A model generated the notes under the pieces. The model saw only the letters and a list, made by a program, of their open reading frames with translations. It had not been told where the DNA came from and made no database searches. Shown piece by piece: positions 33,408-60,015 of a DNA stretch of 64,000 bases (positions are counted from its first letter, which is position 1; each line of letters begins with the position of its first letter). Made by a program: the position numbers and the translations under genes. Source of the stretch: Urechis unicinctus (Eukaryota > Annelida > Polychaeta > Xenopneusta > Urechidae); the NCBI GenBank assembly GCA_034190875.2, contig CM067354.1, forward strand, positions 41,414,982 through 41,478,981. The letters are read 5' to 3'.

Positions 33408-33484
33408 CTCTCTCTCTCTCCCACACACACACACATACATGCAAACGTACATACATACATACATACATACATACATACATACAT

Positions 33485-33566
<82 letters not shown>

Positions 33567-33855
33567 ACACACACACATACATCATACATACATACATACA
33601 TACATACATACATACATACATACATACATACATACATACATACATACATACATACATACATACATACATACATACATACATACATACATACATACATACA
33701 TACATACATACATACATACATACATACATACATACATACATACATACATACATACATACATACATACATACATACATACATACATACATACATACATACA
33801 TACATACATACATACATACATACATACATACATACATACATACATACATACACAC
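33335..33855. repeat. Compound (CA)n/(CT)n/(ACAT)n microsatellite
   Basis: CA and CT runs (33335-33440) are followed by ACAT repeats, a long CA run to about 33580 and then about 270 bp of almost perfect ACAT tetranucleotide repeat to 33851. Open frames of MYVC or THTYI repeats on both strands are artefacts of it. Confidence 0.98.
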
Positions 33856-36800
33856 AACTATTGTACCCAGTTATCGCCCCAACCTTCTGTTCTGTCTACG
33901 CCTCTCCTTGACACGTGCTGCACTGTCAAGCGTCTCAAGAGATTTTATTACCAAAGTATATAAGTTCCTTCATCAACAGATACTTATCTACAATTTTAAC
34001 AAGGTCTGAATGGATGTACAAAGTGGTTTTATCTGCAAAGGAATGTCTGCTGAACAAATGGCTGTCACTTGTAGATAATACCAAAAAAAATGAGAACATG
34101 TTATTCCAAATCCCTTTACTTGAAATTTAACAGTACTGCTTGGAATTTGATGTTCCTCTCCAACAGCGCCGCCTATTGGGCAGAGGGGTGTGTTACGCCG
34201 CCAACATACAGCTAACGCCTCCTTTCTGTGTCCTAAACTCTCAGAGTAAATCGCCTGATGTTGAAACACTATCGTGTTCATTTTATAGACAATTTTTTTT
34301 CTCAATGGGATGTATTACTGACTAAGCATTGTCAACTTCGTGACAATAAATAAACCAACGTTTTTCGTTGGCGTCACCCGACCAGTTTGGATGTGTCTAA
34401 GTCTACCCAATGGCACAACAAAGCGTCAAAAATAATCTGCTATTATTATCGTGAGCCAGCCCAGCAGATAACCTGAGGCAAGGGAGAGATGACGTCGTCT
34501 TCTCGTACGAGGTCAGACCCCTCCAGGTGAAGTCATCTGTGGCAACAACAACTCACCTCTGGGCGATCAACACGAGCTACAATGTCTTGATTGTTTGGGG
34601 CATCACTGGGGAAATAAGTGGCGTACCAACAATTGTGATATTAGCAACGCATATGATCTGATGGGTTAACATACCTACGTCACATTCGTCCTAGGAACAA
34701 CAGCATTTGGTGATTCGTGTGGGAAATGGATCAAACATTTGTAATCTTAAAACAGACAATTTATTTTAGATAATTTAACAATGCGCTTTGTGAATACACT
34801 TTGAGAGTGCTATATGAATCCTCTCCTTGCGTAACTACGAAAACCATGCGTTGTAAGAGCGGGTTGCGTATTCTGCATCGACCCATGGGCGCTAATTACT
34901 ATACGTCATTCTGCAACAATCAGCTTTATATTGTGAAACTAGTTAACGTAACAGGTGTCCGACCATTCATAGTGAAAAAGAACTGTTATTTTGTGCTCGA
35001 TTTATTAAGATGAATTTTAAATTTGATGGAGTACGTAATAGCACAGTCGACCGAAACTCTTGTTGTGACTTATGTTCATAAATACAGCCAAAGGAAGTGG
35101 TATTTTTTTTCAAAGACAAAGATAGGTGTTTGAGTACGAGGCAACTATAATCCATATCACCCGGGGATTATTGTTGGCTCAACAAACAATCAAGGCTTAA
35201 GTAGGCTAGGACAACCAAAACAGACAGACTGCATCACGATTCGGCAGCTGTTGTCGGGTGTATCAATTATCGCCCATTGAGCGCCTACACCAGCAGACAC
35301 AATGAGTTGACATCTGCTGCAAAGCATTGCGGTGTGAATCGACCGAAGACATTCCGCACAATTGGCTCGTGTTATAACCTTGATGCGAAGACAACTAACT
35401 AGGCTGAACATCGGAATGCACGGAACAGCAAAAACTATCATGGTCCGACAAAAATACAAATTTACGATGCAAGAATGTTTCATGCAGGACAGACAATCGT
35501 GAAAGAACGTCCGAATCGTGTCATTAACCTCTCTGCTTTGTAAGAATTCTTGGTTCGTCTTTCGTCGAAGGAGCCGTTACGTTACGCTTGGGGACTAGAG
35601 TGGGGGGTTGGGGGCGGTATTTTGGGGTGGGTGTGGTGATTATGGGCGTTAGGAGAGGTGTACGTGCTAGAGTGATAGAGCGTTAGGGAGGCTGGGGTTG
35701 AAATCGACCAAAAAAGCGTAAAGTAATTTGCGAACGGTCGCAAAGCATGCTGTCAAACAACCGTACAAACACAAGTACTGTAATAATGATCCAAACCTCA
35801 ACTTGTAGTTGGTGCCACAATTAATTTTTAACTAAATATCATTTGAATTCGCGATTACAAATATACACGCAAATACCACGAAAGTATATCTTTCATTATC
35901 CAAATAACATTACAAAGAGGAAAACTATTAATGCCACTACAAACAAGGCATCGCAGGCAAATTAATATTTTTGGAGGAGTGATGTTGTTATTACGACTGG
36001 GACACCTGCTGAAGCAGGTACCCATGGGACACTGTTAAGCTTGCTGTACGAAAGCTGTGCTAAGCAGGTGTCTTTCGGGATGGTCTTGGTTAAAAAAGGA
36101 TAGAGATTGATTCTGTGATAAGATGGAACGTATTTTTTTTATTTAGACATGTCTATTAATAGATTAACTTCTGCCTTCTCATCGAACGTCAGCCAACTGG
36201 CGGCAAGATTTTCTACAGTACGCCTTTCTGGTGGGTCTATTTTTCTGTCACACGTGCAGCACGTCACATTTTGTTGGCATCGTGATTGACTAACCGACGT
36301 TCCGTCCAGCTGGGAACACTGAGGCTTTTCATCAAATTAATTGGAAAAGGAAAACATTTAAGTACACTGGTGTTATAGCAAAATAGCTAATGATTTTATA
36401 AAGCGTCTTTAGGACCACAACGAAATGGGTATTCCCATGGGACATGTATGACGCCGGCTGATTGTGGTGAACAGCCCTAATTATCGCTCTTTCACTACTT
36501 CAACGGCGCACCCCCTTACCACCCCGCGAATTCTATCATTCCTGTAATGTCCATTTTACCTTCATGCAATAGTGATCTTCACTGAGTCGAGTCTATTTTA
36601 CCTACTGACACTATCGTTGGAGGCCACCTGCATATAACGGATCGTTGGCCAAATACCTTGAATTAGCCCAACAGACTAACAGTCGATCGGGTACTCCCAA
36701 GCTCCACTTGGTTCAAAAGAGCTACCTTGAATGTCCTCAAGTTGAAGGTAACTTTGCTGCCTCGACAAGTCACAGGTGAACAAATCAATACACGTTATGA

Positions 36801-37740: not shown

Positions 37741-40401
<2,661 letters not shown>

Positions 40402-40954: not shown

Positions 40955-41119
40955 ATGGCGATGGACAGTGACCTTCCATGGGGGGGACTGTTTAGTGAGC
41001 CTGACAGCAACTTCATGGTAGCAGACTCTCAACCATGTGATTCTCAACCATGTGACCTGGATCCACAAAACATGTTCTCTCATCTCAAGGCTTTATCAGA
41101 GCCAAGAACATCCACGAAG
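40955..41119 (+). CDS. TP53BP1: 53BP1 exon 1, N-terminus with SQ motifs
   Basis: Starts MAMDSDLPWGGLF and contains ADSQPCDSQPC and MFSHLKALSEP. These parallel the DSDFSQ...EDSQP...HFSML...LP order of the vertebrate N-terminus. Two SQ dipeptides offer ATM-type phosphorylation sites. The downstream donor is AAG|GTAGTC, phase 0. A second ATG two codons later is an alternative start. Confidence 0.85.
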
Positions 41120-44100: not shown

Positions 44101-47100
44101 TGAAGCCTCTTTCCCATTCTGCCAAATAGATGAACAAATTGTTCGTATCAGGTCAAACAAAAACAAAGCACTCTTTCTCTAGAATACGATTCACTCAGGG
44201 CCAGCTCAAACTGCTCAGCCCTATCGAACCCTGTAATAAAACCTGAAGTAGGTCTTTTTGGCTACCTATCATATATTGACATTCGTGAATTTTTTCGTAG
44301 ACGAACTGCGCTTATCTGGGGCCGTATTCATAAAGGATCTTAACTTGAGTTGTCTCAATTTGAGTCTGCGATTACACTAACAACAGAGATTTCAGTTGAC
44401 CTGTCGACTTATTGTTTTTATGAATACGGCTGAGTGAGCCAACTCGGGTTACCTTATCAAAACCTGACTTTATGAATACCTGATCTAAAGCTGGTTGACA
44501 CACGTATTTTATGGTAGCATGCGCGGACAAAAACTGGAGACAAACGTCTCAAGCATGCTTTTGATGTTTGTCAATATCGCTGGAAAGTAATGAACCAAGA
44601 GAGAGCGCTAAAACTGACTCACCACCCAGGCGCTTTATTAGGCAATTTCAACTCGCCTGGAATCGTTTTCAGTCGCCATTGGCGAGTGGCTGACCGTTAG
44701 TTTCCACCCCTGCAACCATTGACCCCACCCGCCCCCCCCAACCTCCACCAGAGCGCCCCTGTCCCCGAGACGACAGTTTACACTGCAGCGCTTTCCTTTC
44801 ACAACACCCTTATCGCGATTTTGACAGTTTCTTACAAACCTCAAACAAATAGTGTTTCTTTTTGAGACGGTATAAAATCAACATGGCCCGGGACCTTATT
44901 TTGCGAACTGACGAAGCTGGTTGTCACTCCATTCGCTATCATTTAAGTATCATGACACTGATTAAACCACATCTGCCATAAAAAGTCAAATCAAACCGAG
45001 CAGTATCTATCTTGATGTAGATGAGCGGCCAGTGCGCTGCGTCCCAGGTTTTCTTTAAATAAGCTGTTTATACTAACTGGGCTTATTTTTGTATCCGGCC
45101 TGGGAGACGTGGACGGTCTTATGGGGAAAATTCCGAACTAATGGCCGGGTGGATGGGTCTCTGGCTAAGACCCAGAGCCTGAAGTAACATTTGTCATGGA
45201 TGTAAAAATTGTGAATCATATGAATAGCCCATAAGAAAGTTATTCCTGCATCCCCATGCTTGTCTAAAGCTGTGTATGTTTGGATCTCAGGTGGTGTGAG
45301 TGTGAATCTAATCGTATCGGAGAGGTCCAGCGGGAACAATGGCGTTCATGATGCTAGGTATTTGGCCAGTATTTGACAGCTTATGCTAACATCAGTTTAT
45401 GAAGAAATATTGGTCATGTGTTCTTCATTTGTTCGAGACATTAAGCCTGATGTGTGCTTAGCGATGGAGGTATCAGTGATGCCCCGACAGCTGTGGTCAG
45501 TGATACAGAGAGTCTAGCTGTGCAGCCCTGGCTCTCACCTCGTCCAGGTCCTATACACTCTCCAGGTGGGCTGACCTCGTTAATGTGTTGGACAGGACTG
45601 CATCACCGATATGTTTACTTTGCCAAAGATGATGTAGTCCTAGGCACCGAGAACAGTGTGGTGTTTGTTGATAGTTAATGGTTGTATCATGTATTCACGA
45701 AACAATGTGTATGATAATGTAAGATCTCATGTGGTTGTGGGTACAGTTGATTCCACTGGTGCTGGTGAACATCAAGGCCATACCAGTCACCCCTCACTGA
45801 GGTCACCTGCATCTGCCGCCACCTATAGTCCAGGTAAGTAACCACTGATGGCCAGTGCTGCACAGTGTGGATCATACCTGGCTACCTGGCTGGGTTCTTG
45901 ATTAGTCCTTTGGTTAAGAGTCATCTCCCAGCCATTTACTGATGAATCTCAGCATTTGCACTCGATCCATTGGTTGGTACATTGACCTTGGTTGTTGTGC
46001 ATGACCTGATCCCACCACGTTGTAAGTGAGCTGTGGTGTGTGTTAGTGAGGAGTGGGATGAGTCCTCGTGGAGAACTCAGCAGCGCTCTGAGTGCACTCA
46101 GCTCCTTCACCAGCAGCTCCAGCAGCGGTGCTGAGATCACCACTCCTGTCATGTGAGTTCATCTCAAGGATCATTGGTATGCTGTTATCATACAGTAAGG
46201 AGGTGTCCATTTCAAGCTGTTATCATACTCTAAAGTAATGAGGTGCCCATTTAAAGATGATATCATACACTAGAGTAATGAGGTGTCCATTTAAAGATGA
46301 TATCATACTCTAAAGTAATGAGGTGTCCATTTAAAGATGATATCATACACTAGAGTATTGAGATGTCCATTTAAAGATGATATCATACACTAGAGTAATG
46401 AGGTGTCCATTTAAAGATGATATCATACACTAGAGTAATGAGGTGTCCATTTAAAGATGATATCATACACTAGAGTAATGAGGTGTCCATGTAAAGCTAT
46501 TATCATAGACTAGAGTAATGAGGTGTCCATGTAAAGCTATTATCATACACTAGAGTAATGAGGTGTCCATGTAAAGCTGTTATCATAGACTACAGTAATG
46601 AGGTGTCCATTAAAATACTGTTATCATACACTAGAGTAGTGAGGTGTCCATGTAAATCTGTTATCATACACTAGAGTTATTGTGACTGTGTTAGCAGAGG
46701 TTCACGTAAGCGGGTTGTTATGAGGCGCCTTCCTGCTCCTCCTGCCAAGAAGAGGCGAGCAAATACATCATCAGAAACAGACACCACGACAGATGGCAGG
46801 ACAACATCAACGACCACCACCACAACCACTGACACTGATGCCCACAGCCCACCGCCACATGACCCGTCACATGATCCATCACATGATCCATCACATGACA
46901 CGTCTGGTGACCAATCAGAAAGCCACTCATGCCATGAGCCCCATGGTCATGGCGACGACAAACCAGAAGACACAGAAGCTGGCGGAGAGGGAGCAGATGT
47001 ACCGTGCTCTCAGAATGATATGTTTGAGGACAAGGATGGTGAATATATGGCATGTTCTCATTGGTTTATACTGTGAGTGGGATACTGTACATACAGTCAA

Positions 47101-53100: not shown

Positions 53101-56100
53101 TCACAAGGATACCCCACGTTCTAGTCGCAGTAAGAAGCGACGGAGACCCACCCATCCCTCCACCCAACCAGCCCGCCCACCCAGCAGTAAACACAGAGAT
53201 GCTGAGAGAGACACCGCATCAGAACCTGCCCTGGCCCAGTATGAGTTCTCGTCGCAATCCCAGGATGACAAAGGAGCCTTGAAGACAATGTTAGCTTTAG
53301 GAAGAGAAGCTCGCTCCAGAGTCTCGAGATCCGATGAGGTCAGCATTTCCTTTCAGTGTGATAATGGTGTCAGTTGTGCTACTTTGATGCTGAGTGAGGT
53401 GCAGCGACTTGTTCTACGTCAGTGTTGTTTCACTTTGTTTTACTTTAACTAGATAAGATCTGTAGGGTGTCCATGTTAGATTCATGGTCACTAATTATCT
53501 AAATATTTGCACAAATGGTTATATTTTTCCGCCACAGCAAGTATTATATATACACTGATGTTAAGTTCTATGGCATTGTGTAAAATTCTGCTGGTAAAAG
53601 GGGTGCCGAGTCAACTAAAGTTAGCATGTTTTCTTATGCTACTAAGCTAGTAAATAATAGCCATCAACATAAGCGGGATCCATGAGTAATTTGGGGAAGG
53701 TAGCTTGCTTAATATTAGGAAAACATGCCACAACATTTTATAAACGGACCGACAGATGGATGGACAGACATAGGAGCACAGGTATATGGTAAGCGCAAGA
53801 ACAGAGCTAAAAACATTCGGTCATTCTGTTGCACCATAGCAAATGTCAGCGCATTTTGGGTTGGACCTTATTACATGGGTTTCATGTATGGGCTAGGCCA
53901 TGCAGGTTCGTTGGGGTGGGACATGGATTTCAGTATAGTGCCAAAACTGCCGTCTTTTACCCAACCAAAGTGAATGAAATACATCACTCTCAGTGTCACA
54001 TAAAGTTGCATCTAAACATTACTAATTCAAACCAATCGACCATTAAAATTTATTGGGCCAGTTCACTTTGAGTAGGGGTGGTAAATTTTGGTTTGTCAAT
54101 TCAATTTGTGTATACTTGTATACTAGTTATTCATTCAGTTTTCATCATGGTCTGCATTATAGAAGTCTGGAGGCCAGAAAGCTGCCCCTGCCCAGTCAAG
54201 TGCCTCATCTTCTGTGAGGGCAGCGGTCTCCAGCACGTCTGATAGAGGCGACGTTAGTATGGGGAACGGTGGCAACTGGGGACAGGTATATCATCCCCCG
54301 TGGCTCTTGTCTTACTCTCATCTGTCATTGTATCATGTGCCCCTGGTTATTGTCTTACTCTCAACTGTCATTGTATCATGTGCCCCTGGTTATTGTCTTA
54401 CTCTCACCTGTCATTGTATCATGTGCCCCTGGTTATTGTCTTACTCTCTCCTAGTCATTTTATCATGTGCCCCTGGTTATTGTCTGATGTATGTAGATTA
54501 TGATCCGTTTGTGTAGTTTTCATGTGGTAAACCTTGCATGTGTCAGCAGAAGTCATCGGGAGGGTCATCTGGAGGTCATAGGTCAGGTATTCACACTTTA
54601 CGTGTGACCAAGGTGATAACAACTTACAGGCAGACCATGACAATTGTAGAAGAACAAGTCGATGGCAAGACTGTCCGCACCGAGTTCAGTGAGGTGCGTT
54701 ATGGTGTATACATCTCTGGTGACAGTGCTGCAGAACTTATAGCTAAGCATTATCCTATTTACAGGCTCATTCAAGTGAATGGACAAACTTGTTTTAGTAA
54801 TGTCAGTTATGAATGTGGTAATTTAAGGAGGAACTACTTGCTTACTATGTGTTACGTTTGTTATTTGATAATACAGGATAAACTGGAGACTCTGAGTCGT
54901 ACTATGGACACGTCGGAGGAGATACTGAGTCCCCCATCCCCCTCACGCAGCATCCAAACCATGACAACAGGTGACCTAGCAGACATCAGTTCCATCTCAC
55001 ATGGGTCGAGTAAGCCTGGCAGCAGCTTTAACAGTCCCCGTAGCAGTCTGGGGGGTCTCATGCAGCACAATACCAACCTTCTCATGGCCCAGCTGCAACA
55101 CAGCGGTACCATGCACAGGGGTGTCAATGCCAGCTTGGTAACGTCCAACTCGACGCCTCCCTCCCTACAGACCTCCCTGTCGGACCCTGGCAGTGGTAAG
55201 TTTATGACGCCCTTACAAAAGGCTCCTGAGCATGTCCTGGGGCAGGATGGAGTTAGGATGCCTCCTCCTGTTTCTGCAGCTCTCACCGTTTCCTCATCAA
55301 CTCTGCCTCAGCAGTTACTCCGCAGCTCCACTCTTGAGAACGCCGTGCCAATACAACAAGCGGCTGGGGCGCGTGGTGAGTCAACGGGCAGCCACAAGCC
55401 GCTCCTGAAGCAGAAGTCAAGTACCAGTACTGTACACTCAGAGTCCCTCTTCAGCACAACAACAGAATCTGGTACAGCTAAATTGCTGGGTCGACAATCA
55501 ACTGACAGCTTGAAGCAATCAGCATCTCTGTTCAGTAATGCCGACTCTGACAGTGAGACAGACTCACACCAATCAACCATCTCAAAGTCATTACCTGCAC
55601 TGGTTCCTGCTCAGGTAAACCCTGTGGAGATGCCTGATCAAAGTGACAATGAGGATGACTCGGAGAATGTCATACCAGGCACAGACTGTGAGCGGCCAGG
55701 AGCTGTGAAGGGACTGAGTAGCTTCAGGCATGGAGATGGCCCCACTGTCACTGAGGAGAATCATAATGATGAGGATGGCAGAATCAGGTACGTTATGATG
55801 GGTACACTGGACCCTCTAGAGTATGGTTCAGCTGCAGTAGCTTCTCATTATTAGCAGCGTGGTAAAGATAGATGTACGTGGTCAGTGTTGTAGTTATTGT
55901 GTTATTGGGACAGAAGCAAACGATGTCGTGGTCAATGACTAACAGCCTTTCACTGGTAGCCCTGAGCTGCCTGTTGCAGGTGAAGAATATGACTCATTCA
56001 CCAGAATCCAGGTGGCACCACCTGCTCTGTCTGGGGACTCTGTGCTAGAAACAGGTGTGTGCATTGTGTGTGTCCTTGGATAGAGACGTAATGACTAAAC

Positions 56101-59100
56101 CTTCTTCCCCAGTACCATGAATTCACCCTGCTACTGAGTGCTCAAATTTCTCTGACATAAATATGGACTACTAAAGTGCAGGCAGCTTGAACACAGGCAC
56201 TCGAGTTCGGACATCATGTTCGGACTTTCTGTACACTAGCATTATGATATAATATATATATTATATCATAATGCAAGGGAGATAACAAATCATGATGTCA
56301 AAAATCGAGTGCCTTTGAGCTTGAACATGTGTATATTCAAAGCCTTTGCTGCATATAGAATAACCTGTTTCTTAACGTGATCTCCAGGTACAATGGTGCT
56401 GGCCATGTGGAAGGACAAGCATTATTACCCAGCGACGATCGTGACCAAGAAAAGGCAGCGTTATCAAGTGATGTTTGAAGACAAAAACGAATTCCTAGCG
56501 AAGGCTCAGCAGCTCATTGTGTGTGACATGGTGCCCGTCGGACAGGATGTGCTCGTGGAGAATGAGAATTCATGGTGCCAACCTGGACAGGTGCTGGCTC
56601 ACCTGGCTAACGAGGATGGCTCCAAGCACTATGTCATCAGTGTGGAGGCCCAACTGAAAATCACGTTAGATTTTTATTTGGTTGGGGTTCATTACGCTAG
56701 ATAAATCGGCTCACCACTTAAAAATATTGATGTGTGGCATCACATGTAATGGGCTTACATTAATGTACATGTTACAACTCAAACTGCTGTGTGTAGAATA
56801 TGTGTGTGAACTTAGACTGTGTTGTATTTAGACTTTGTTTTGCATACAGTCTGTGTTGTATATAGACTGTTTTGCATACAGACTGTGTTGTATCTAGACT
56901 TTGTTTTGAATACAGACTGACTTATACATTTTGTTTTGACAGGGTTTCAAGAAGCAAGGTCAATCTCAATGCCCAACAAGCAGCTGACTTGATCAAAGCC
57001 ATCAAAGCAGGTGATTATGAGAAGCCCACCTGTTCCACTGACGAGCTGGGGCAGGAGCCCGTAGCACCTGCAGGGTCAGTGGCTAACGATGGAGGACTTG
57101 GTGAGACGAAGGAGGCAGAAGCTGCAGGTAGTGTGGCCGTGGGTTTAGACATACAGGCATGTTGGCATTGTTTGGGTTCTGTGGGTTGATGTTTTATCTG
57201 TGTATGTTTTAACCTAGATGTAGAAGAGGACAGGAGTTATATACCAGATGACCCCTATGTGCCTCTACAGCCCATCGCTATAGGTGAGCTGCTCTTGCTT
57301 CCTCATTCATCCATCCATAGATCCATCTATCTTGGAATGTTCCTCGTGTGTGATTTGTCAGCTGAGCATGCTGTATGTTGACTGAGCCTCGTGGATGCAG
57401 GTACCCTGGTTCTGGCTCGGTGGCGAGACAACCACCTGTATCCCGGCAAGGTGACAGACACGGAGGGCAAGGACAAGAAGTGGACGGTGTCGTTTGATGA
57501 TGGCAGTGTCCACCAGGTGTCCAGTCACTGTGTGGTGGTGTGTGACCTATTGCCGATAGACTCCATGGTGATGGCTGAGAGGGAGGGGGGATGGAGTGAA
57601 GCAGCACGAGTGGTCAGTCACTTCCGACGCGGTCAAGGGGCCCAGCTACACTACAGTTACCGAGTGGAATTTAATGACGGCACCCAACAAAGGTAACTTG
57701 CCTTCATTTGTCATCTCATGTTGGAATAAATGTGAGTTTGTGATGTATATATTTTATTGGTATATTGTAGTGGTTCATCCCGTGGATGTTGTTTGTTAGA
57801 CTGTGTCGCCAGGGTGTTACACTGAGTGCTGAGCAGGCTTCACTCCTCTTCAGTAAACTTAAGAGCCATCTAGGCACCCCACTCCATACCGGCCTGGCTA
57901 TTGTCAGTTTGGGTATGTTCACTAACCCCAACCCTTCCTATCCACTCACTCTATATTTCTTATTGTTAATATTTATAAACAAGAAAACTAGTCAATAACT
58001 GAAGTCTTCTTTTTTTTCATGTTTATAGAGAATCTTGTTGATGGCAAGAGGCGGCGAGGAACACCCACCTCCTCTAGTAAACCTACCACCTCCTCTAGTA
58101 AACCTACCACCTCCTCTAGTAAACCTACCACCTCCCTCTCCACCTCCTCAACACGTGACACAGTCAAAGCAGCAACTGGCAAGTCGGTCAAGAGAAAACT
58201 GGACCCTACTACAACTTCCACACCCAAGAGACTTCTCAGTTCTGGTAACTAGGCATGATGCTTATTCCTCAACGCTTAATGCTTCAAATTTGGACATTTG
58301 CCAAAAAAATTGTCCACCTGTACAATTGTTGATATTCGGTGAAAATAAGAGATACCTCCCATCTTTAGTTATTGCCTTGAAACCAATGATTAAACTGTAT
58401 TCTGGTGAATTCATTCAGAGTGTAAGACACCAAGAACTCCTATTCTGACCCCTTTTGCCTCGCCCGCTTCAGAACGACGGTCACCCAGAGCTGCAAGAAC
58501 AAGTAATGTTACTATCCCAATGTTGGCACTGAAGGTCAACATTGTCACAAATTTGATTCTGCAGTGAATTGTTGTTTAATTGACAGTTGCTTTCCACAAT
58601 TCTATCGCATCAATTAATATTGCTGTGTTCTGCAGGCTTGTTCAGTAATTTGAAAGGCCCCATCCCACCGACAGGCTCGCGCCTATTCCATGACAAGGTG
58701 TTTCTCTTGACGCATGTCGAGAAGACTCAGGAACAGAAGAGACTGGAGAAAAAGTTGCTACGGCAGCACAAAGGATGTATCTCCATGGAAACATCGGACG
58801 AAGATAACTGTCTGGATGGTTAGTGGAGGCAGCATTAAGGCATACCACATGACTTTCAAGAAAGAGTGCATTTGTTACCATGCCAACTGCATCTGATTTC
58901 AGATGAAGATGAGATGCCTTTCGATAAGGATCATCTTTGTGCTCAACTCATTGCTGGAGGGGGCACTGTCCTAGATAAATTTGATTTTAATCAGGTTCAA
59001 AATCTCTCCCTACTTTCTATATGTTGGTCACATTGTATAAGTGAAAATAATGGTGATATTTAACCCTTATACCTTAAACACAATTTGTGTTTTAGCTCAA

Positions 59101-60015
59101 AAGTGGAAAGTGCTTTTTGATCTCCGACAGTTACCAAAGAACTCTGAAATATTTCTACTGCTTAGCAGCCAGCATACCATGTGTATCTCATGTGTGGGTG
59201 AGGGATTGTTGCAATACGGTGAGTATGTTTTACAGAAATTCTCCATTGTATTAGTCTCACGTATATCAAATGCATTCACATTAGTTAAACCATAACTATG
59301 CAAGTGACATGTTGTGCTGTAGAATGACCTGCAAGATTCCAAGAATTACCTGTTACCAGCCGGCATCAGTTTGGAGAGCAACAAACTTGTAGAATGGTAA
59401 GAGCCGCTCCGTATTGTGTACAACATTTAGGATATGTGGGTACTCATTGATGTTGGCTGGCATTTGGTTCCTACTGTTGTGTGTGTGTAGGCATGCGCGG
59501 GGCGGTGTTCTGAGTAAAATCAACATCTACCTTGGCTCCACCAATGACAAGTTTATCACGGCCTGGACAGGTGTATTACAAGTGGCTGGTTGTACACTCA
59601 AACATACCCTGCCTAAAACAGGTCACCACACCAAAAAAATACCAAACACACCAATCTGTGGAATTACCATGTCCTATAATATGAAATGTTAACTTATAAA
59701 TTGTTATTTGATGGCCCTTCATATGGTAACATAGCACATTCTCTGAGCATGTGTATTGCAGTAAGTATCTGAGTGTTCTGCATGATGGTAGCACCCCCAC
59801 ACTCACCATTCCTTATTGTATCTGCTCCAGGCGCTGGTGTGGATGTTGTCCTCACTGACCTCTACGCTCGGCAAGACGACCTTGACCTTGCTGATCATCT
59901 GGGAATCCCTGTGCTTTCCTCTGAGTGGATTATCCAGTCCTTGATAAGTGGGCGTCGCTTGGGCTACTACAGCCATCCCAAATTTAAAATAGACCCTGCT
60001 GAACTCAAGACATAA
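40955..60015 (+). CDS. TP53BP1: 53BP1 orthologue (DNA damage response scaffold), 36 coding exons resolved
   Basis: 53BP1 binds modified nucleosomes at DNA breaks and recruits end-protection factors. Exons: 40955-41119, 42712-42872, 43003-43210, 43314-43393, 45470-45565, 45747-45833, 46047-46152, 46698-47038, 47180-47255, 47399-47561, 47690-47860, 48157-48264, 48359-48527, 48749-48850, 51271-51381, 51563-51665, 52154-52257, 52351-52483, 52609-53338, 54163-54285, 54550-54693, 54877-55787, 55960-56054, 56388-56664, 56943-57127, 57218-57283, 57401-57692, 57800-57912, 58029-58244, 58473-58502, 58636-58818, 58903-58994, 59096-59218, 59323-59396, 59491-59621, 59831-60015. Phases agree from exon 3 to the TAA. 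Exon 1 to 2 does not join in frame as drawn. About 2,150 aa (human 1,972). Landmarks: SLHLQFSDSQ and LALHMTLTQDTQ (SQ/TQ-rich N-terminal half), FCLSIPHDSDLLPKDPPPLS, the oligomerisation segment, GDLADISSISHGSSKPGSS, two tandem Tudor units, ENLVDGKRRRG and BRCT domains. An RG-rich GAR motif was not found. Confidence 0.93.
41238..41247 (+). other. TP53BP1: Hypothetical 10-nt microexon of TP53BP1
   Basis: A stretch ttggcaatag flanked by 'gatttag' and 'gtatct' would convert the phase-0 end of exon 1 into phase 1. It could then join a shorter exon 2 starting at 42744 (acceptor gtacag), giving a continuous frame. This is one possible repair of the exon 1-2 mismatch and is speculative. Confidence 0.15.
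41334..42537 (+). mobile_element. DNA transposon copy 1 in TP53BP1 intron 1 (1.2 kb)
   Basis: The left end is cagaggtggaaactaa and the right end ttagtttccacatctg, its inverted match. The 6-bp target duplication CATATG lies at 41328-41333 and 42538-42543. It shares about 0.9 kb of diverged sequence with the inverted copy at 43761-44712. An open frame at 41964-42197 plus downstream remnants (RLLDFASIDK) hints at a decayed coding region, but no transposase motif is recognisable. The CAGGGGTGG-type termini recall hAT-like elements with unusual duplication length. The superfamily is undecided. Confidence 0.85.
43761..44712 (-). mobile_element. DNA transposon copy 2 in TP53BP1 intron 4, inverted to copy 1
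   Basis: Ends ctggggtggaaactaac and gttagtttccacccctg form terminal inverted repeats, flanked by the 6-bp duplication CAACCA at 43755-43760 and 44713-44718. On the minus strand it matches copy 1: attcacaacttcgatcc, agaatcattagatact, ctgcttgattttgcaagca and cgtttgtctccagtttttgt. It carries an extra insertion at 44318-44479. Confidence 0.85.
44318..44479. mobile_element. Nested ~160-bp insertion in transposon copy 2
   Basis: Copy 1 reads continuously 'gatcagataagcg' (41469), whereas copy 2 is interrupted at that point. The insert contains inverted words gccgtattcataaa (44321-44334) and tttatgaatacggc (44417-44430), and another tttatgaatac at its end. It is probably a miniature inverted-repeat element that landed in the older transposon. 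Confidence 0.65.
46170..46680. repeat. 40-bp intronic minisatellite in TP53BP1
   Basis: The unit taatgaggtgtccatttaaa followed by gatgatatcatacactagag repeats about 13 times and fills almost the whole intron between exons 7 and 8 (46153-46697). Confidence 0.95.
48851..51270. other. Large TP53BP1 intron with repeated phrases
   Basis: No exon is needed here, since exons 14 and 15 join in phase 1. The sequence 'aagctagctgtcccaaatga' with 'tgatggctcctt' recurs in diverged form around 50620-50850, and 'accttgaccttattt' type phrases occur near 49350 and 50085. It looks like old dispersed-repeat sequence. Confidence 0.5.
54297..54485. repeat. 43-bp intronic minisatellite in TP53BP1
   Basis: The unit contains tgtcttactctcatctgtca and ttgtatcatgtgcccctggt, repeated about four times between exon 20 (ends 54285) and exon 21 (starts 54550). 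Open frames across it are repeat artefacts. Confidence 0.9.
54550..54693 (+). CDS. TP53BP1: 53BP1 exon 21, oligomerisation-domain equivalent
   Basis: The exon encodes HTLRVTKVITTYRQTMTIVE and EEQVDGKTVRTEFSE. It aligns with the vertebrate segment REVRTLVTRVITDVYYVDG and the following EVERKV, which lies in the 53BP1 multimerisation region. It is phase 0 on both sides. The 911-nt exon after it starts with a predicted helix (DKLETLSRTMDTSEE) and includes GDLADISSIS, matching vertebrate GDLGDISSFS. That fixes the gene identity independently of the C-terminus. Confidence 0.85.
56196..56313. mobile_element. Foldback element with 36-bp perfect palindrome
   Basis: The outer arms ggcactcga (56196) and tcgagtgcc (to 56313), together with inner gacatcatg / catgatgtc, are inverted. 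The centre 56239-56274 is a perfect AT-rich palindrome beginning gcattatgatataat. Direct words gcttgaaca flank it on both sides (about 56184 and 56320), possibly from the insertion. It lies in the intron just before the first tandem Tudor exon. Confidence 0.75.
56388..57010 (+). CDS. TP53BP1: 53BP1 tandem Tudor unit 1 (exon 24 and start of exon 25)
   Basis: Exon 24 (56388-56664) encodes GTMVLAMWKDKHYYPATIV, YQVMFEDKNEF and CDMVPVGQDVLVENENSWCQ, then SKHYVISVEAQ. Exon 25 begins with VSRSKVNLNAQQAADLIKAI, the closing helix. This covers both Tudor folds of the 53BP1 module that reads H4K20me2. Relative to human numbering it keeps W1495, Y1502, F1519 and D1521, but has Asn in place of Tyr1523. 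Exon 24 is phase 1 in and phase 2 out. A second in-frame donor at 57010/57011 (phase 1) offers an alternative to the 57127 end. Confidence 0.85.
57401..57912 (+). CDS. TP53BP1: 53BP1 tandem Tudor unit 2 (exons 27-28)
   Basis: Exon 27 (57401-57692) encodes GTLVLARWRDNHLYPGKVTD, WTVSFDDGSVHQV and CDLLPIDSMVMAEREGGWSE, then HYSYRVEFNDGTQQR. Exon 28 (57800-57912) adds LCRQGVTLSAEQASLLFSKL. It is closer to the vertebrate module than unit 1 (FDDG, CDxxPxD). Trp1495, Tyr1502, Phe1519 and Asp1521 equivalents are kept, and Ser replaces Tyr1523. The exon phases (1, 2, 1) repeat those of unit 1. It is followed directly by the ubiquitin-recruitment motif, so this is probably the ancestral position. Confidence 0.9.
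58029..58244 (+). CDS. TP53BP1: 53BP1 ubiquitin-dependent recruitment motif and basic linker
   Basis: Across the exon 28-29 junction the protein reads AIVSLENLVDGKRRRGTPTS. The vertebrate equivalent, ISLDNLVEGKRKRRS, contacts H2AK15-ubiquitin nucleosomes. The rest of exon 29 is Ser/Thr/Lys-rich, includes three in-frame copies of a 21-bp repeat, and ends with a basic SVKRKLDP...PKRLLSS segment suited to a nuclear localisation signal. Confidence 0.9.
58067..58129 (+). repeat. In-frame 21-bp repeat, 3 copies (TSSSKPT)
   Basis: acctcctctagtaaacctac is repeated three times in exact register inside exon 29, immediately after the ubiquitin-recruitment motif. It encodes (TSSSKPT)3, and copy-number change would not disturb the frame. 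Confidence 0.95.
58636..60015 (+). CDS. TP53BP1: 53BP1 tandem BRCT domains (exons 31-36)
   Basis: BRCT1 reads GPIPPTGSRLFHDKVFLLTH, AQLIAGGGTVLDKFD, KCFLISDSYQRTLKYFYCLA and IPCVSHVWVRDCCNT. The linker is SKNYLLPAGISLESNKLVEW. BRCT2 reads LSKINIYLGSTNDKFITAW, VDVVLTDLYARQDDLDLAD, GIPVLSSEWIIQSLISGRRL and SHPKFKIDPAELKT before TAA. Each matches vertebrate 53BP1, where this pair binds p53 and gamma-H2AX. The conserved Trp of each C-terminal helix is present (HVWV, SEWI). Confidence 0.95.

Follow-up and report, generated by a model that had tools for sequence, protein, structure and literature searches.

Introduction

The protein 53BP1 takes part in the choice between end-joining and homologous repair, with one reader module per chain and helped by oligomerisation. 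Crb2 of S. pombe and Rad9 of budding yeast have one module each, and we know of no UDR in either of them. Vertebrate 53BP1 (TP53BP1) has the domain order of the locus presented here, from tandem Tudor through UDR to tandem BRCT, and the sections of the literature available to us describe one tandem Tudor module in it (PMC12147562, PMC5974088). In the human protein the cage for methylated lysine is given as W1495, Y1502, F1519, D1521 and Y1523 in the excerpted text of PMC5974088, and for the foci of human cells a role of avidity through 53BP1 oligomers has been proposed (PMC12187134, in the part consulted). The C. elegans homologue HSR-9 likewise combines tandem Tudor with BRCT, and one Tudor region (residues 734-854) is described in the accessible portion of its source (PMC3648578). 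KDM4A/B, PHF20 and PHF20L1 are also methyl-lysine readers with Tudor pairs, according to the sections of PMC12147562 used here, in another protein context than that of 53BP1. In that survey, which covers the Tudor genes of Holozoa, TP53BP1 appears as a single tandem whose two Tudor domains are called first and second, and no 53BP1 with four Tudor domains was seen in the available part of its text (PMC12147562).

Here we describe a 53BP1 gene of Urechis unicinctus that encodes two tandem Tudor modules, in contrast to the single module described for vertebrate 53BP1 and for HSR-9. Among the matches listed in open-access full texts, no description of a 53BP1 with two such modules was found, and with respect to these papers we rate the protein as known and the variant as new. 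Sequence databases may already contain relatives that lack annotation.

Results

Gene model and identity

The window, that is, the whole stretch of 64,000 nucleotides of Urechis unicinctus DNA that was analysed, contains 16 exons on the plus strand (54550-60015) which join into a single frame whose only stop comes at its end, with AG before all 16 exons and GT after 15/15. They encode, in order, an oligomerisation-like segment, a long linker, the upstream tandem Tudor module (TTD1, exons A and B), a spacer, the downstream module (TTD2, exons D and E), a UDR motif, a basic stretch and a tandem BRCT. The features are as follows, with coordinates of the window.

54550..54693 (+): exon of the OD-like segment (..LRVTKVITTYRQ..VDGKTVRTEFSE), open exon of the 16-exon frame
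54877..55787 (+): long linker exon between OD and Tudor region, from the 16-exon frame
55960..56054 (+): exon preceding TTD1, phase 1 out, from the 16-exon frame
56388..56664 (+): exon A, 277 nt, phase 1 to 2, both Tudor folds of TTD1, from PF09038 and PDB match
56943..57127 (+): exon B, 185 nt, phase 2 to 1, closing helix of TTD1 and then linker, from likeness of the helix to TTD2
57218..57283 (+): exon C, 66 nt, symmetric 1-1, spacer, from the 16-exon frame
57401..57692 (+): exon D, 292 nt, phase 1 to 2, both Tudor folds of TTD2, from PF09038 and PDB match
57800..57912 (+): exon E, 113 nt, phase 2 to 1, closing helix of TTD2 and first half of the UDR (from about 57876), from alignment to 4cri, 1ssf and 5zcj
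58029..58244 (+): exon F, second half of the UDR (NLVDGKRRRG, to about 58060) and a basic stretch rich in Ser and Thr
58473..58502 (+): exon G, short, basic, from the 16-exon frame
58636..60015 (+): exons H to M, tandem BRCT and stop codon, from BRCT chain matches and PF18428 (H 58636-58818, I 58903-58994, J 59096-59218, K 59323-59396, L 59491-59621, M 59831-60015)

The segment at 54550-54693 we take to resemble the oligomerisation domain (OD) of human 53BP1. A further exon at 40955 (+), beginning MAMDSDLPWGGLFSEPDSNFMVADSQPCDSQPCD.. and with DSQP repeats like those of the human N-terminus, is presumably the first coding exon of 53BP1, in which case the gene would probably span about 19 kb.

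That the gene is 53BP1, as the first-pass annotation had proposed, is supported by the presence of OD-like segment, tandem Tudor, UDR and BRCT in one open frame. The C-terminal tandem BRCT is of the 53BP1 type: the BRCT part matches the 53BP1 chain 1kzy with 160.3 bits (E 6.1e-46), the tail exons match all of the 53BP1 BRCT chains 1kzy, 5ecg and 1gzh with 157-160 bits, and the open stretch holding exon M matches PF18428 with 51.9 bits. The 53BP1 chains 4cri, 1ssf and 5zcj, which span Tudor and UDR, align with TTD2, its helix and the UDR at E of about 1e-13. No match in NCBIfam was obtained for any of three proteins. As to the clade, COX1 gave no match (8/14 control genomes, all from prokaryotes, did), and neither did molluscan haemocyanin, for which the controls were silent as well, so that the latter result does not imply absence. 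The genome also contains one match to Rif1_N (27.7 bits, cut-off 23, E 6.6e-4, 48/374 model positions), which makes it probable that this animal has a 53BP1 effector.

Several repeats were seen in the window. Two lie between 53BP1 exons, namely a tandem repeat of 40 bp (12 copies, 91% matches, 46194-46677, +) and one of 43 bp (4 copies, 96% matches, 54307-54485, +), and just past the UDR there are three SSSKPTT units in frame (58070-58132, +). Elsewhere there is an ACAT microsatellite of about 109 copies (33425-33856), and minisatellites with periods from 27 to 195 bp occupy 0.2-0.6, 3.2-5.8, 14.2-17.9 and 23.6-29.3 kb. Upstream of the 53BP1 gene and on the opposite strand, the coding sequence for the C-terminal part of ribosomal protein S6 (eS6) is found at 37744-38028 (-), the best solved match of which is eS6 (E 6.7e-21).

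Two tandem Tudor modules

The proposed doubling of the tandem Tudor module in the gene held, since both modules exceed the cut-off of PF09038 (53-BP1_Tudor) and all three parts of TTD1 match TTD2; the range claimed, 56388-57912, runs exactly from the first base of exon A to the last base of exon E. When the helix exons are included, PF09038 gives 28.2 bits for TTD1 (model positions 7-114 of 122) and 42.6 bits for TTD2 (positions 8-114), against a cut-off of 22; the open stretch of exon A (56381-56704) and that of exon D (57382-57696) by themselves reach 26.0 and 35.5 bits. The best PDB match is 53BP1 both for exon A (E 6.1e-6) and for exon D (E 5.6e-8). Matches to other Tudor pairs were far weaker (PHF20 E 0.0016, KDM4A 0.17), and SGF29, UHRF1 and SETDB1 were absent from the PDB match lists of the two exons. 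PDB matches of the TTD2 queries to unrelated proteins stood at chance level (E about 0.09 and above). The Pfam model Tudor_3, that of S. pombe Crb2, is matched above its cut-off by the first fold of each module.

The two modules are 33% identical over 89 positions of the fold exons (BLASTP, E 2e-19) and 31.7% identical over 120 positions when the helix is included, and the whole-module alignment scores 173 compared to a maximum of 44 among 1000 shuffles. When first fold, second fold and helix were compared separately between the modules, the observed score was reached by 0/5000 shuffles each time, and the same was true of both folds of both modules against human 53BP1 (four comparisons). The helix of TTD2 resembles that of human 53BP1 (8/5000 shuffles as good), whereas for the helix of TTD1 no likeness to the human protein was detectable (1313/5000 shuffles as good), and what identifies it is solely its resemblance to TTD2, together with the 2.2 bits that it adds to the PF09038 score (26.0 to 28.2). 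TTD1 is by sequence a tandem Tudor, with the helix as its weakest part.

The UDR directly follows TTD2 only, and TTD1 is without one; the motif reads TPLHTGLAIVSLENLVDGKRRR here and TPLTKAADISLDNLVEGKRKR in the vertebrate 53BP1 structure 4cri. Because TTD2 adjoins the UDR and is closer to human 53BP1 (35 vs 25 of 104 columns), it is best regarded as the canonical module.

Origin of the second module

A duplication of a two-exon cassette had been suggested from the exon phases, and the intron positions and phases do correspond between the modules. Exons A and D begin at the same residue in phase 1, both opening with G|GT(M/L)VLA(M/R)W as had been noticed earlier, the internal intron splits aligned codons of TTD1 and TTD2 in phase 2, and exons B and E exit in phase 1, as would be expected from the copying of a two-exon 1-1 cassette. 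Between the modules lie the two spacer parts of the original description, the end of exon B and exon C. In comparable fourfold codons for the same amino acid the third base is common to the modules in 7/17 cases, and the introns of the two cassettes have no detectable likeness (62/1000 and 143/1000 shuffles reach the observed scores), which indicates that the copies are old. As fourfold sites and introns have diverged and the protein motifs persist, TTD1 looks to have been maintained by selection. The comparison supports, at the level of sequence, a duplication of the tandem Tudor cassette of 53BP1 in place and long ago.

For the age of the event, 104 columns of three sequences were compared, after gapped columns and the columns after human residue 1599 had been dropped. 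Identical columns numbered 34 for TTD1-TTD2, 35 for TTD2-human and 25 for TTD1-human, and in 2000 bootstraps (ties counted for each) the closest pair was TTD1-TTD2 in 1589, TTD2-human in 410 and TTD1-human in 15. These three sequences are compatible with a duplication on either side of the divergence from the vertebrate lineage.

An artefact, either a duplication in the assembly or a chance resemblance, is extremely improbable and was rejected, as the proteins of the two copies share only about 32% of their residues, no likeness between the introns was detected, the shuffle tests put the resemblance far above chance and each module matches 53BP1 by itself. A retrocopy with joined exons, or a paralogue, was looked for as well: when the genome (1.19 Gb, 926 contigs) was searched with the 333-residue spliced peptide (E up to 10), no second copy was found, all six matches listed being these exons (only the best five candidates were scored). 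The genome-wide search with PF09038 gave one match, exon D, with exon A absent at E up to 0.001. Among contigs of prokaryote genomes no relative was found, as expected (214 stretches fit a pattern, 0 confirmed).

Each cassette, as well as exon C, is symmetric (1-1) and the joins are open, so the frame is compatible with skipping or with mutually exclusive use. The upstream cassette could accordingly be alternatively spliced, with A-B (with or without C) optional or mutually exclusive, in which case most molecules would have one module and splicing would set the number or specificity of readers. All seven joins tried were stop-free (skipping of A+B, of A+B+C, of D+E, of C to E and of C alone, and two hybrids), and the donor of exon A (CAC|GTTAGA) is weak, with a rough score of -2.4. 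However, a frame that permits skipping does not show skipping, and in the BRCT region exon I (-4.3) has a weaker and exon L (-1.1) a nearly as weak donor, although both exons are presumably constitutive. Exon C and the linker of exon B are also without counterpart in the second cassette, and forms with TTD1 only would be deprived of exon E and so of one half of the UDR, which argues against TTD1 as a plain substitute. We consider such splicing rather unlikely, and both modules in one chain remain the preferred reading.

Methyl-lysine cage, TIRR and ligand

The residue numbering is that of human 53BP1, and all 16 residues mapped from papers agree with the human letters at their numbers. At the cage positions TTD1 has W, Y, F, D and N and TTD2 has W, Y, F, D and S; each module thus keeps 4/5 of the H4K20me2-cage residues, and Tyr1523 is absent from both. 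Position 1500, Tyr in vertebrate 53BP1, is His in both modules, and position 1547 is Glu in both. In TTD1 the human Gly-Tyr at 1522-1523 is replaced by Lys-Asn, so its cage may differ.

In the human protein, according to the sections of PMC5974088 used, Y1523A weakens the binding of TIRR (Kd 28.5 vs 0.9 uM) and leaves the binding of H4K20me2 unaffected, binding of TIRR to Y1523S was not detected, and Y1500A weakens it. With Tyr1523 missing in both modules, these mutants lead us to predict two readers of H4K20me2 type that would be poorly bound by TIRR, that is, reading without the TIRR inhibitor.

It could also be that TTD1 has diverged and binds something else, either a protein or a different methylated lysine, in a histone or outside the histones, so that the two modules would provide two inputs and not avidity. 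Where human 53BP1 has Y1523, TTD1 carries N and TTD2 S; the preceding residue is K vs G and the one corresponding to K1505 is T vs K. On the nematode Hsr-9 Tudor model of Pfam TTD1 alone scores above TTD2 alone (26.6 vs 17.1 bits, cut-off 27); the joined protein reaches 37.7 bits on this model, with the best stretch within TTD1. As TTD1 is less like the human module (25/104) than TTD2 is (35/104), another function of TTD1 fits as well. In contrast, four cage residues including the Asp are identical in both modules, and a change of ligand is in our opinion unlikely.

The available portion of PMC10541411 reports that the human 53BP1 tandem Tudor forms a lowly populated closed dimer, and the two modules could in principle pair in cis as a built-in version of it, burying their methyl-lysine surfaces. 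Beside W1495, 6/7 of the closed-dimer contacts could be mapped (residue list from the part of PMC10541411 used; R1490 precedes the human letters used). Of these, E1549 and R1583 are conserved in TTD1 as well as in TTD2, and the two modules share a Trp in place of Y1552. However, in place of D1550 TTD1 has Asn and TTD2 has Gly, in place of L1518 they have Met and Ser, respectively, and K1505 is Thr in TTD1; the human variant E1549P/D1550N was built to block pairing (PMC10541411, same part). We consider pairing in cis very unlikely.

Discussion

The gene presented here departs from the described form of 53BP1, as it encodes two tandem Tudor modules. The reading that we favour, with moderate confidence, is that the cassette was duplicated, that TTD2 with the UDR is the ordinary reader and TTD1 a second methyl-lysine reader, and that both are present in one chain with a gain in avidity. 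TTD2 and the UDR would keep their ordinary job of reading H4K20me2 and ubiquitylated H2A on one nucleosome, and TTD1 would bind a second H4K20me2 tail, either the other H4 tail of the same nucleosome or that of a neighbouring nucleosome. The spacer between the modules is about 60 residues long (61 counted from the end of KAIKA). Each chain would then hold two readers and an oligomer twice the usual number. For this the two cassettes would have to occur in the same mRNA, TTD1 would have to fold and bind methyl-lysine, and the gain from the second reader would have to be avidity, all of which we infer. The first-pass annotation had proposed bivalent reading or a second ligand, and the retained cage residues may be said to fit this proposal.

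More tentatively, the four-Tudor 53BP1 could be the form of an animal lineage in which a UDR-coupled and a free reader engage two tails, so that the spacing of chromatin or two marks, and not one, would gate end-joining, free of control of the TIRR type.

A natural 53BP1 with two modules offers a ready test of how much the number of readers matters, and also of the role of a tandem Tudor that is untied from the UDR. For the protein itself, the gain from the second module would probably be a second grip on damaged chromatin.
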